From: Candidatus Mediterraneibacter norwichensis
Lineage (GTDB): Bacteria; Bacillota; Clostridia; Lachnospirales; Lachnospiraceae
Assembly (NCBI GenBank): GCA_019112765.1
Contig: DXIU01000129.1
Location: forward strand, 1-45,599
Length of the DNA: 45,599 nt
Direction of reading: 5' to 3'
Every line of letters starts with the position of its first letter. Positions within the stretch are counted from its first letter, which is position 1. A program made the position numbers and the translations under genes. The notes below the pieces were generated by a model. That model worked only from the letters and a program-made list of their open reading frames with translations. It made no database searches and had not been told where the DNA came from. Below are positions 1 to 24,594 of this stretch, piece by piece.

Positions 1-150
1 TCCTGTATATTCTATCCGTAAGAAGAATCGGAATGTTTCCAGGCTTTTCCCAATGTATGCCCCCTTCGCAATTCCTCATAAGACAAAAGGAAATGGGCAC
101 TTTAACGGCAAAGAAGTCAGGCCATCCAGCAGGCAGTACTGATGCTCTGG
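1..150 (-). repeat. Copy A (inverted, truncated by window edge) of a ~200-250 nt repeat
   Basis: Reverse complement of 1-115 aligns with 192-306. Shared segments: cggatagaatatacagga, tttatgaggaattgcgaa, tttgccgttaaa. Confidence 0.75.
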
Positions 151-154
151 ATTC

Positions 155-400
155 GTTAAGCTGCAGCCGGATTCAGTCCTGTTCAACCGTTGCTTTTGCC
201 GTTAAATCTCCCTTCTGTTTTTGTTTTATGAGGAATTGCGAAAGGAACGTCTGCTTTGGAAAAACGGGAATAATCAGGAGTCCCTCCCGGATAGAATATA
301 CAGGAGATGCCGGGTATGGAATCCTGGTGACTCGGAGAAATCTGTCAGAAAAACCGGGGATTGGGAATCTGATGTTAATGCCTGAGATGAAGCTGTCCGA
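155..400 (+). repeat. Copy B (forward) of the same repeat
   Basis: Pairs with copy A on its 5' half and with copy C along most of its length. Includes gagatgccgggtatggaat and agaaaaaccggggattggg. Confidence 0.75.
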
Positions 401-404
401 ACAA

Positions 405-600
405 CGTGAGTTTTCATCTCAGGCATTGCTTTTAATCAGATCCCCAATCCCCGGTTTTTCTAAGATTTCGAAGCGGAGCCAGAATTCCATACCCGGCATC
501 TCCGTCCCATTCTATCCCGGAACTTCTGAATACTTTCCGATATTTCTTAATCTACGTTCATTTCGACGAATCCGAATCTTTCATAAGTTCACAGGATTGA
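405..600 (-). repeat. Copy C (inverted) of the same repeat
   Basis: Reverse complement of 412-505 is gagatgccgggtatggaattctgg...agaaaaaccggggattggggatctgat...gcctgagatgaa, matching 305-392. Weaker match continues outward to about 590. Confidence 0.8.
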
Positions 601-690
601 CATACTTTCCTGCTAGGATTAGGATAAAGTAAAACTGGGATGGACAGCAGAAAAAGCTGAATATACGGCAGAAACAGAAGGAGATGATCC

Positions 691-3161: not shown

Positions 3162-4568
3162 ATGTACGAGCAGATTTATAATGCGGTTGAATCTGTAGAC
3201 AATGTTGTCTGGGGATGGGGAATGATTATACTTCTTCTGGGAACGCATCTGTTCCTGACCATCCGCACAGGATTTATCCAGCGTAAGACGATAACAAAGG
3301 GAATACCGCTGTCCGTCTCAAAAGAAGACGACGCTGACGGGGAGGTCAGCCAGTTCGGAGCGCTGGCGACGGCACTGGCGTCTACAATCGGAACAGGAAA
3401 TATTATCGGTGTCGGAACCGCAATCGCTCTGGGCGGCCCGGGAGCAGTGCTCTGGTGCTGGCTCACAGGTGTGTTTGGTATTGCGACAAAATACGCAGAA
3501 TCACTTATTGCTGTAAAATATCGTGTCAAGACGACTGACGGGCGTATGCAGGGCGGAGCTATGTACGCTCTGGAACGCGGGCTGAATATGAAATGGCTGG
3601 GAATGCTCTTCGCGGTTTTTGCCGGGTTTGCCTCTTTTGGAATCGGATGTGCGACGCAGGTAAATGCCATTGCGGAAGTGTGCAGTACGAACCTCGGTAT
3701 TGAGCCCTGGATTGTCGGTCTGGTTATTGCGGTTCTGACAGCGTTTGTTATTTTCGGAGGAATCAAAAGCATTGCAAGTGTGTGCGAGAAGCTTGTTCCG
3801 TTCATGGCGTTTTTCTATGTGCTGGGCTGTCTTATCATCCTTTGCATTAATCATGAATATATTATCCTTACGGTTCAGACAATATGTCAGCTTGCCTTTG
3901 CAGATGAGGGAGCTGTGGTCGGCGGTCTGGTCGGCGGCGGTCTTCGTTGCGCAATCCAGTATGGAGTGGCAAGAGGTCTTTTCTCCAACGAATCCGGCAT
4001 GGGTTCAGCGCCGATTGCGGCTGCGGCGGCAAAAACAAGAAATCCGGTGCGCCAGGCGCTTGTATCCTCTACGGGAACATTCTGGGATACGGTTGTTGTC
4101 TGTCTGATGACAGGGCTTGTGCTTGTATCAACTATGCTTAAGAACCCGGATCTTCTTGCGTCAGTAGACAATGGAGGCCAGCTTACAACTATGGCGTTTG
4201 CTCAGATCCCGTACCTCGGTCCGTTTATTCTTGTGGTAGGTATTATCACATTTGCGTATTCTACGATCCTCGGCTGGGCTTATTACGGAGAACGCTGCGT
4301 GGAGTATTTCTCAGGAAAGATCGGCCTGATTCCATACAGAGTGCTTTACATTATCGTTGCGCTGATCGCACCTGTACTGGCGCTTGATCTTGTATGGCTG
4401 ATTGCCGACATTCTCAATGCGCTGATGGCAATCCCGAACCTGATCGCTGTGCTTCTGCTCTCGCCGGTGATCGTGAAAGAAACGAAAAAATATATTAATA
4501 ATCTGGACGCGGTAGATGATACACCAATTCCGGTAGTCAAGACCGGTATCGGAAACGACAAAAAGTAA
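3162..4568 (+). CDS. Alanine/glycine:sodium symporter family (AgcS-type) protein
   Basis: Protein MYEQIYNAVESVDNVVWGWGMIILL... with family motifs GTGNIIGVGTAIALGGPGAVLWCW. RBS caggaggg before ATG 3162. Confidence 0.9.
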   Translation: MYEQIYNAVESVDNVVWGWGMIILLLGTHLFLTIRTGFIQRKTITKGIPLSVSKEDDADGEVSQFGALATALASTIGTGNIIGVGTAIALGGPGAVLWCWLTGVFGIATKYAESLIAVKYRVKTTDGRMQGGAMYALERGLNMKWLGMLFAVFAGFASFGIGCATQVNAIAEVCSTNLGIEPWIVGLVIAVLTAFVIFGGIKSIASVCEKLVPFMAFFYVLGCLIILCINHEYIILTVQTICQLAFADEGAVVGGLVGGGLRCAIQYGVARGLFSNESGMGSAPIAAAAAKTRNPVRQALVSSTGTFWDTVVVCLMTGLVLVSTMLKNPDLLASVDNGGQLTTMAFAQIPYLGPFILVVGIITFAYSTILGWAYYGERCVEYFSGKIGLIPYRVLYIIVALIAPVLALDLVWLIADILNALMAIPNLIAVLLLSPVIVKETKKYINNLDAVDDTPIPVVKTGIGNDKK

Positions 4569-15678: not shown

Positions 15679-16485
15679 ATGCAATTGGATATAAAGAGGA
15701 AGATCAAAAATGAAAAAAGATTCAGACTGTATCTGGAGACGGGACTTGCAGTACTTCTTGTACTGACACTTGCTCTGGCAGGAAGGGCCGGTCTTTTAAA
15801 ATCCGGAGCTGCCGGGAGTGAGCCGGCCGCGGCAGACGCGCAGAAAGAAGCAGGGGACAGCGCGGAAGATGTGAGCGAAAAGGCGGCCGAAGAGAACCGT
15901 CAGGCAGAAAAGGCGGCGGAAGAAGCAGAAGAAACTGCGGCACAGGGACAATATCCTATTCTTGGGGAAAGTGATGTGTCAGTACAGCAGATGGTGGACT
16001 ATTTTGAAGCTTCCGGGGAGGAGTATCCGGAAAAAGCGCTTTCCGCCGGAGGCGCGGACTCCATAGAGACATTCTGCCAGATGTATTATGAGGAGGCAGA
16101 AGCTGAAGGCGTGAGGGCTGAAGTCGCATTTGCCCAGACCATGAAGGAGACAGGATTTCTGCAGTATGGAGGGGACGCCTCCATCGAGCAGTTTAATTTT
16201 GCGGGCATAGGCACAACAGGAAACGGAGAGCCGGGGAATTCCTACCCGGACGTGCGCACCGGGATCCGGGCACAGATCCAGCACCTGAAAGCATATGCCA
16301 CCGCCGATGCCCTGGAGCAGGAGTGTGTGGATGAGCGGTATTCCTATGTAAAGAAAGGATCGGCTCCGTATGTGGAGTGGCTGGGACAGCAGGAAAATCC
16401 GGAAGGCCTGGGCTGGGCCACAGGAGATAACTACGGATATGACATCGTGGGGATGATTGAAGATATGAAGGAAGAGGAATCTTAA
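15679..16485 (+). CDS. Membrane-anchored glucosaminidase-domain protein
   Basis: N-terminal TM, then VAFAQTMKETGFLQYGG, FNFAGIGTTG, YPDVRTGIRAQIQHLKAYA. RBS aggagg. Confidence 0.8.
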   Translation: MQLDIKRKIKNEKRFRLYLETGLAVLLVLTLALAGRAGLLKSGAAGSEPAAADAQKEAGDSAEDVSEKAAEENRQAEKAAEEAEETAAQGQYPILGESDVSVQQMVDYFEASGEEYPEKALSAGGADSIETFCQMYYEEAEAEGVRAEVAFAQTMKETGFLQYGGDASIEQFNFAGIGTTGNGEPGNSYPDVRTGIRAQIQHLKAYATADALEQECVDERYSYVKKGSAPYVEWLGQQENPEGLGWATGDNYGYDIVGMIEDMKEEES

Positions 16486-16500
16486 GATTCCTTAAAATTC

Positions 16501-16529
16501 TTGACAAACAGGAATCTTGCGGCTATAGT
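16501..16529 (+). promoter_or_regulatory. Sigma-A-type promoter for valS
   Basis: ttgaca-17 nt-tatagt. Confidence 0.7.
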
Positions 16530-16580
16530 ATTTGTTAGTTAATTTTTAGTTAACAAGTTAGTAATGATTTGTAAACGGTG

Positions 16581-16645
16581 CTGAAGAAAGGTGGTACCGC
16601 GGGATCTTCGCCCTTTACATATATATGTAAAGGGTTTTCTTTTTT
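16581..16645 (+). promoter_or_regulatory. T-box antiterminator/terminator upstream of valS
   Basis: gaagaaaggtggtaccgcgggatcttcgcccttt, then ccctttacatatatatgtaaagggttttctttttt. Confidence 0.85.
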
Positions 16646-16719
16646 GATTTTTGTGAAGATTTCGTGAACATCCAGGATACAGACAGAACAGATTTATGAG
16701 GGAGATCAAGGAGAAGAAT

Positions 16720-19368
16720 ATGAGCAAAGAACTGGCAAAAACTTACAATCCGAAAGAGATTGAAGGAAAACTGTATGACAAATGGTGTGAAAACAAATAT
16801 TTCCATGCAGAAGTGGACAGAAGCAGAAAACCATTTACCACGGTTATGCCCCCTCCGAATATTACAGGAAAGCTTCACATGGGGCATGCGCTTGATAATA
16901 CACTGCAGGATATCCTGATCCGCTACAAGAGAATGGAAGGATACAACGCTCTGTGGATTCCGGGAACGGATCATGCGGCAATTTCCACGGAAGTCAAGGT
17001 GACAAATCAGCTGAAAGAGGAAGGCATCGACAAGAAAGAGCTGGGCCGGGAAGGATTTCTTAAGAGGACCTGGCAGTGGAAGGAAGAGTATGCAGGAACC
17101 ATCGAAGAACAGCTGAAGAAGCTGGGCGTATCCTGCGACTGGGACAGAGAGCGCTTTACCATGGATGAAGGCTGCTCGAAAGCGGTAGAAGAGGTATTTA
17201 TCAACCTTTATAAGAAAGGTTATATTTATAAAGGATCCAGAATCATTAACTGGTGTCCGAAATGTAATACATCTCTTTCGGATGCCGAGGTAGAGCATGA
17301 GGAACAGGAAGGACATTTCTGGCACATCAGGTATCCTATTGCGGGAACAGACAGGTTCCTTGAGATCGCGACGACACGTCCGGAGACCATGCTGGGAGAT
17401 ACGGCGATTGCGGTGCATCCGGATGATGAGAGATACAAAGATATCGTAGGCAAAAATGTAATCTTGCCTCTGGCAGGCCGGGAAATTCCGATTGTAGCGG
17501 ATTATTATGTAGATAAAGAATTCGGAACCGGAGCTGTGAAGATTACGCCGGCTCACGACCCGAATGACTTTGAAGTAGGCAAGCGCCACAATCTGGAAGA
17601 AATCAATATCATGAATGATGACGCCACAATCAATGAAAAAGGCGGAAAATATGCCGGAATGGACCGCTATGAGGCGAGAAAAGCGATCGTAAAAGATCTG
17701 GAAGAGCAGGGATATCTTGTAAAGGTTGTTCCCCATACTCATGCGGTGGGAACCCATGACCGCTGCGGAACAACGGTGGAACCGCTGATCAAACAGCAGT
17801 GGTTTGTAAAGATGGAAGAACTGGCAAAACCGGCAATTAACGCTCTGAAAACCGGGGAGCTGAAGTTTGTGCCGGACCGGTTTGACAAGATTTATCTGCA
17901 CTGGCTGGAAAATATTAAAGACTGGTGCATTTCCCGTCAGATCTGGTGGGGCCACAGAATCCCGGCATATTACTGCGACGAGTGCGGTGAGATTGTCGTT
18001 GACCGCCATGCTCCGGAGAAGTGCCCGAAGTGCGGCTGCACACATTTCACACAGGATGAGGATACTCTGGATACATGGTTCTCTTCAGCCCTGTGGCCGT
18101 TCTCTACACTGGGCTGGCCGGATAAGACAGAAGATTTGGATTATTTCTATCCGACAGATGTGCTTGTAACAGGATATGACATTATCTTCTTCTGGGTTAT
18201 CCGTATGGTATTCTCCGGATATGAGCATACCGGAAAATCACCGTTCCATACGGTCCTGATTCACGGTCTGGTAAGAGATTCCCAGGGACGGAAGATGAGC
18301 AAATCTCTCGGAAACGGCATTGATCCGCTGGAGATTATCGACAAGTACGGCGCCGACGCGCTGAGACTTACGCTTGTTACCGGAAACGCTCCGGGAAATG
18401 ATATGCGCTTCTATAATGAAAGAGTGGAAGCCAGCAGAAATTTCGCAAATAAGGTATGGAACGCCTCCCGTTTCATTCTGATGAATATGAAAGACGATAC
18501 CATAGAGGAGCCGGAAGACTCTCTGCTGAAGCCGGCTGACCGCTGGATTCTGTCCAGAGTGAACACGCTTGCGAAAGATGTGACCGAGAATATGGACAAA
18601 TACGAGCTGGGTATCGCAGTGCAGAAAGTATACGACTTTATATGGGATGAATTCTGCGACTGGTATGTGGAACTGGCAAAATACCGGATCTACCATGCGG
18701 AGGAAGATCCGAAAGCTGCAGACTGTGCCCTCTGGACACTTAGGACTGTACTTGCCCAGGCATTAAAGCTGCTTCATCCGTTTATGCCGTTTATTACGGA
18801 AGAAATCTACAGCGCGCTGGTGCCGGAAGAAGAGTCTCTGATGATGTCCGGCTGGCCGGTATTCCGGGATGACCGGGTATTCCCTGCTGCGGAGAAGATT
18901 ATGGACCGTGTAAAAGCCATGACAAAGGGAATCCGCAACATCCGCGCAGAGATGAACGTGCCGAATAACAGAAAAACGAAAGTATATATTGTAAGTGAGG
19001 ATAATGATATCTGTACCGGTATTGAGACGTTTAAAGAATCTATCATGCCGCTGATGTCAGCCAGCGGGATCATTGTTCACAAGACGAAACAGGACGTGGA
19101 CGATAACGCGGTTTCTGTTGTAGTGCCGGATGCGGTAGTCTATCTGCCGCTTGAAGATCTGGTGGATGTCGAACAGGAAAAAAAGCGCCTGGAACAGGAG
19201 GAAAAGCGGCTGAACAGTGAAATCAGACGTGCTCAGGGAATGCTGGCAAACGAGAAGTTTGTAAGCCGCGCGCCTGAGGCAAAGGTGCAGGAAGAACGGG
19301 ATAAACTTGAAAAATATACGCAGATGCTTGCCCAGGTAAAAGAAAGAATGGCAGGACTCGGACAGTAG
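16720..19368 (+). CDS. valS: Valyl-tRNA synthetase
   Basis: [15 protein letters not shown] (HIGH), [14 protein letters not shown] (KMSKS), C-terminal coiled coil. Start ATG 16720 after aaggagaagaat. Confidence 0.96.
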
Positions 19369-24554: not shown

Positions 24555-24594
24555 AAAGGGGTCAGACCCCTTTGCAAAAGGGTCTGACCCCTAT
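24555..24594. repeat. GGGGTCAGACCCC palindromic repeat element
   Basis: aaaggggtcagaccccttt-gca-aaagggtctgacccct. Arms pair over about 16 bp. Confidence 0.8.

Follow-up and report, generated by a model that had tools for sequence, protein, structure and literature searches.

Giant hairpins at gene ends across a bacterial genus: candidate intrinsic terminators of probable MITE descent

In the pneumococcus, the SPRITE repeat combines a long stem with a U-rich tract and is enriched in the intervals of convergent genes and close to the 3' ends of CDSs. Its description gives an 18-bp duplex with a U-rich tract, and a role as a co-opted terminator was proposed for it (Croucher et al. 2011, PMC3049150). 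REP/BIME sequences are extragenic palindromes that occur in alternating orientations and form mosaic arrays at gene 3' ends (PMC2817692, PMC1525189), the REPs themselves being 20-40 bp (PMC3733652). The intrinsic terminators of Firmicutes are found a few nucleotides past stop codons, according to the work on B. subtilis as cited in PMC7858274 (Johnson et al. 2020).

Here we analyzed a stretch of 45,599 nucleotides from Candidatus Mediterraneibacter norwichensis (hereafter the window), which is contig C72, from its base 1, of a 137-contig, 2.6-Mb genome (G000) and begins with large inverted repeats. On balance, we favor the interpretation that these repeats belong to a genus-wide family of MITE-derived giant hairpins acting as intrinsic terminators at gene ends; termination itself we infer from structure, strand and position.

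A truncated element at the start of the window

An inverted-repeat search over positions 1-600 recovered arms at 285-343/463-521 (76%), 347-373/435-461 (96%) and 377-391/413-427 (100%), together with further arms at 62-112/195-245 (82%) and 1-18/288-305 (100%). The RNA fold of the same region was 16-18 sd under dinucleotide shuffles on both strands. Such folding is far beyond chance, and the inverted repeats reported in the initial annotation are real and correctly placed. Their arrangement had to be revised, as we found two adjacent hairpins, at 1-305 and about 285-521, sharing the strand at about 285-305, instead of three alternating copies of a 200-250-nt unit. The middle hairpin (domain B, 1-305, no strand assigned) is formed by the arms 62-112/195-245 and 1-18/288-305 and was also seen in folding. 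The core-bearing hairpin (domain C, 285-521, + strand) is bounded by the outer arms 285-343/463-521, and the right hairpin folded alone (269-545) has a z of -16.6. This hairpin encloses a conserved structured core of about 155 nt at 327-479 (+), which matches our covariance model R1 over model positions 1-158 of 158 (153.9 bits, E = 1.4e-37) and is itself one of the 19 sequences used to build that model. The repeat unit is this core with long arms, usually present once or twice per element. Repeat search and core alignment place the apical stem at 376-392/412-428 (376-428, +) with the conserved loop CTGTCCGAAC..CGTGAGT. Straight after the stem comes the U-tract TTGCTTTTA (426-434, +), a hallmark of intrinsic terminators on this strand. 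Pairing had been described as extending to about 590; the right end of the element is instead at 576, where TTCGACGAATCCGAA occupies 562-576 and, read on the - strand, gives the right terminal inverted repeat (TIR) TTCGGATTCGTCGAA, matching the end of the full copy.

A genome search with window positions 1-610 returned many copies, several of them nearly full length, with 75-77% identity over 62-577. The most complete copy, C10:50673-51540, is 868 bp long and carries perfect 15-nt TIRs, TTCGGATTTGTCGAA/TTCGACAAATCCGAA, at both ends, sequences that also occur at many single ends. It folds with -436 to -456 kcal/mol, about 20 sd or more under shuffles. Between its TIRs, two cores of about 155 nt stand head to head (inverted) with a middle hairpin between them; in our locus L088, these cores are at 3273-3428 (-, 89.8 bits) and 3792-3944 (+, 152.5 bits). 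The visible part in the window (1-576, +, 75% identity over 62-577 to this copy) holds the middle and right hairpins and amounts to the rightmost two thirds of a single larger element. The left part of about 290 bp is missing and the contig begins inside the element of about 870 bp, in keeping with the earlier remark that the repeat runs off the window. Of the 137 contigs in the assembly, at least 25 terminate within such elements, indicating that the true copy number is above the assembled count, and the elements thereby limit short-read assemblies. The contigs concerned, mostly ending in an element, are C3, C19, C27, C29, C35, C38, C45, C49, C54, C68, C72, C78, C83, C95, C104, C105, C108, C118-C120, C124, C133 and others; contigs of the G083 assembly likewise end in elements.

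The region had been judged non-coding, and this holds: the 199-aa ORF spanning the repeat region has no match in a Pfam scan, and no copy is coding. Outside the element, a sigma-70-like promoter (TTGACA-17-TAGGAT, 597-625, +) starts 20 nt past the element end. It belongs to the downstream operon of a response regulator gene (691-1374, +; Pfam PF00072 and PF00486) and a sensor histidine kinase gene (1371-2906, +; Pfam HAMP, HisKA and HATPase_c). The core in the window is directed toward this two-component operon, and the gene on its 3' side is not convergent there. The suggested link to the operon is incidental, because the flanking genes vary from copy to copy. The same site is also occupied in a related species (L181). 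The most likely local role of the element is to stop transcription coming from the left of the contig end. Elsewhere in the window, a palindromic GGGGTCAGACCCCT repeat pair, which we take to resemble a REP-type repeat, lies between two genes at 24557-24591, and a T-box-like leader (GGTGGTACCGCGGG, then a hairpin and a T run) lies at about 16485-16640, just upstream of the ORF at 16696-19368.

A conserved structured core

DNA searches in relatives gave matches limited to the inner hairpin of about 150 nt. In the core alignment, the stems are variable and covarying and the unpaired motifs near-invariant: 5' GYGACTY lies opposite 3' GGARCGGARC, a GTTA bulge faces a T-rich one, and the apical loop reads TGTCYGARC...GYGAGTT. 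Model R1, built from 19 sequences of the window's genus only, found 39 copies in the own genome. Of 58 species in the genus, 47 have at least one copy, often dozens and up to at least 51 per species. The guess of a dispersed palindromic repeat family is thus borne out, with tens of copies in this genome and more across the genus. Beyond the genus the core is sparse: among 120 genomes of the family, each drawn from a different genus, 7 matched, the own genome included. It is almost absent beyond the family, as a draw across the phylum yielded one genome besides the own, with a single match. A single core match (G266:C13:73987-74137, 49.5 bits) lies in a genome of another family of the phylum and could reflect horizontal transfer or chance. 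Core copies in other genera (G206, G202, G134, G125, G103 and G187) were absent from the R1 model and therefore provide independent confirmation.

Among 80 aligned cores, 95.2% of the cells are paired and 40 of 43 pairs show double changes. The covariation score was 0.666, compared with 0.222 for shuffled and at most 0.127 for slid partners, with the reservation that the alignment had been fitted to the structure beforehand, which favors the score. This covarying core lends support to the structured RNAs proposed at the outset. A search of the window and six relatives against Rfam 15 at a permissive threshold gave no family above its gathering score. The palindromes drew only sub-threshold plant and animal miRNA matches, typical for perfect hairpins, and the same scan also matched a glycine riboswitch unrelated to the element. 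The core family is not listed in Rfam, and a literature search with the loop sequence gave no match.

The elements are 90-870 bp in size, approximately, and non-coding. Head-to-head core pairs with their 3' ends outward, about 200-370 nt apart, recur at 15 or more loci of other species; single-core elements are common too. The halves are mosaic, with the end types GAAGGGAAYTTCCGG, GAAATGAACTTG, GGGGAACTGTGAG and TATGATTGAGAAGG combined differently among copies, and the family includes near-identical copies (97-99% over about 130 nt). A D-type long hairpin with the same TIR start (TTCGGATTTGTATGATTGAGAAGGGACGCC...) but no match to the core model was observed at L095, L097, L102 and L160-L162, for example at about 15.3 kb of G000:C80. 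At L096 (about 11.2 kb of G000:C18), a truncated D-type hairpin adjoins sequence resembling the C-terminal part of a group II intron RT/maturase. Within an element copy at the end of G000:C22 (L099, 3700-3925) lies a palindrome, CCACCACTTCAAGTGGTGG, that resembles an IS200/IS605 end.

Terminal inverted repeats and a probable mobile origin

The suspicion of a mobile element gains support from the TIRs and from target-site duplications in another genus. In G134, a different genus of the same family, core hairpins carry the TIR GTTAC(T/A)GTTCACRGCC and 8-bp target duplications (ATACACTC, AGCGGAGC, CTGACGGG and GATTCATC). This combination indicates that the copies there arrived by transposition. 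In the window's genus, inspection of intact copies revealed no target-site duplication. No transposase sharing the ends was found in the copy neighborhoods examined or in TIR scans of the own genome, the genus and G134; the G134 scan gave no long TIR pair, and assemblies break at copies. An autonomous transposon was rejected after these TIR scans gave none.

Two other readings were considered. The arms in G134 match at 96% within a copy versus 69% between copies; the corresponding values in the window's genus are 72% and 67%, and on this weak contrast we set aside fold-back templating of the arms as the main explanation. Hairpins of attC sites likewise follow stop codons, but the dispersed position, the TIRs and the target duplications in G134 speak against an attC-like reading.

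Gene ends, proposed termination and described repeats

For 92 element ends in the own genome and two relatives, we took the distance from the preceding stop codon, counting ORFs of at least 100 codons. It was 0-10 nt for 50 ends and exactly 1 nt for 22 of these, with TAA, TAG and TGA all used. Cores from other species, a set of 70 that includes same-element pairs and orthologous sites and is not fully independent, have a facing gene on the core 3' side in 67 cases. The stop codon of this gene falls 96-117 nt past the core, a 22-nt interval, in 54 of the 70, as against 2.9% in random placements. Of the same cores, 53 stand between inward-facing genes; convergent junctions make up about 14% (10/72) in the sampled loci. 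At orthologous ends lacking the element, relatives have ordinary hairpins, some terminator-like, 0-2 nt past the stop, and one site may hold different subtypes in different species (L091, L172, L211). Our guess is that the flush ends could have arisen when an element inserted and the old terminator and spacer were later lost. The tight spacing is not strange in itself, since B. subtilis terminators a few nucleotides from stops are known. The unusual point is that the gene flush with the element enters the core via the strand without the U-tract.

A stable stem followed by a U-tract, as in intrinsic terminators, is found on one strand of the core. The core strand has at least five T in the 8 nt after the apical stem (e.g. 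TTGCTTTTA, TGGTTTTTAG and CTGTTTTTAGCC) in 77 of 94 cores, the opposite strand in 1 of 94. Isolated mismatches in the arms outside the own genome comprise 64 of G.U type versus 22 of A.C type on the core strand, an excess expected if the core-strand RNA is under selection, in counts where relatives share ancestry and are not independent and to which strand-biased mutation may contribute. The bias is absent in the own genome (12 G.U versus 20 A.C). The U-tract asymmetry, the wobble bias and the position between facing genes together point to intrinsic termination of transcription from the 5' side of the core. The genus-wide core, its covariation, the recurrent two-core elements and the ordinary terminator-like hairpins at element-free orthologous ends also speak for termination. 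Speaking against it are the apical loop of about 19-20 nt, far longer than in typical terminators, the entry of the flush gene on the strand lacking the U-tract, and the non-convergent gene on the 3' side in the window; the missing target duplications and transposase in the genus count against the reading as a whole. In the mechanism we propose, an element has either a single core or a head-to-head pair whose 3' ends face outward. When polymerase arrives from the 5' side of a core, the transcript would fold into the long stem, the apical stem would form, and the U-tract (TTGCTTTTA in the window) would release polymerase just ahead of the facing gene's stop codon. In a two-core element, each facing gene would be terminated at the far core, and such two-way termination may limit antisense read-through.

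A purely selfish MITE family, mobilized in trans by a transposase, tolerated at convergent-gene 3' ends because insertion there would disrupt nothing of importance, and with incidental terminator-like features, seems rather unlikely to us. It would account well for the TIRs, the 8-bp duplications in G134, the near-identical copies and the mosaic subtypes with interchangeable halves. However, the strand-specific U-tract (77 versus 1 of 94), the conserved loops and the cross-genus covarying stems imply selection beyond the TIRs, and simple insertion does not explain ends flush with stop codons on both sides. The missing target duplications in the window's genus and the lack of a transposase with matching TIRs in the neighborhoods examined or the G134 TIR scan weigh in the same direction. 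Terminator function, for its part, fails to account for either the arms of 300-870 nt or the conservation of the outer loops (GYGACTY / GGARCGGARC). We regard it as unlikely, if worth considering, that a dedicated factor reads the internal and apical loops of a family-wide gene-3'-end element, making it a regulated two-way terminator or processing device. If so, the descendant of a transposable hairpin has spread and diversified, and in most of the genus's species it has come to keep facing genes apart.

We also doubt strongly that the family is dedicated to work as a structured RNA or as a protein-binding site (in 3' UTR processing, as an RNase III site, in stability or as a small RNA), with the conserved internal loops as its functional part and termination as a secondary effect. 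In favor are the invariant or nearly invariant loops (GYGACTY / GGARCGGARC, GTTA and TGTCYGARC...GYGAGTT), which recur in other genera, and the suitability of very long duplexes for RNase III; against it, we identified neither a trans-acting partner nor a transcript nor a promoter of its own, and the loops could be relics of a transposase-recognized hairpin. The initial alternatives, an array of three short-repeat copies or a decayed IS or ORF, could appeal to the inverted arms and the 199-aa ORF across the region and are extremely improbable, since that ORF has no Pfam match and the full-length copies elsewhere are each one integrated element bounded by TIRs.

If the terminator reading is correct, most species of a genus carry, tens of times per genome, a large class of repeated gene-end structures that has gone uncatalogued, and the family offers a tangible example of how a mobile repeat may have become a standard terminator between facing genes.

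By analogy, the closest precedents appear to be the pneumococcal SPRITE and the enterobacterial BIMEs. SPRITE is the nearest described element, likened here by description: both are interspersed, combine a stem with a U-rich tract and sit at convergent-gene ends. The present family departs from SPRITE in its stem of hundreds of nucleotides, its TIRs and its head-to-head core pairs, and also in having internal loops and a conserved apical loop of 19-20 nt. With REP/BIME it shares palindromes, alternating orientation and mosaic arrangement at gene 3' ends, but its unit is ten times larger, does not fit a 20-40-bp palindrome, and REPs are associated with REP-associated tyrosine transposases. Like MITEs, including Correia, ERIC and BOX, the elements are small, non-coding, TIR-bounded, strongly folding and interspersed, with target duplications in the G134 subfamily. 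They differ from MITEs in their stop-codon-flush ends, strand-specific U-tract and family-wide core, and in that neither target duplications nor a parental transposase were found in the genus. From what is reported of Firmicutes terminators in the source cited above, a hairpin directly past the stop codon is a tolerated position, whereas here the flush gene meets the strand without the U-tract, which serves the gene on the far side. With a SPRITE-like mode of working by description, a larger size and a different anatomy, the family is best seen as a variant of an already-described kind of element.
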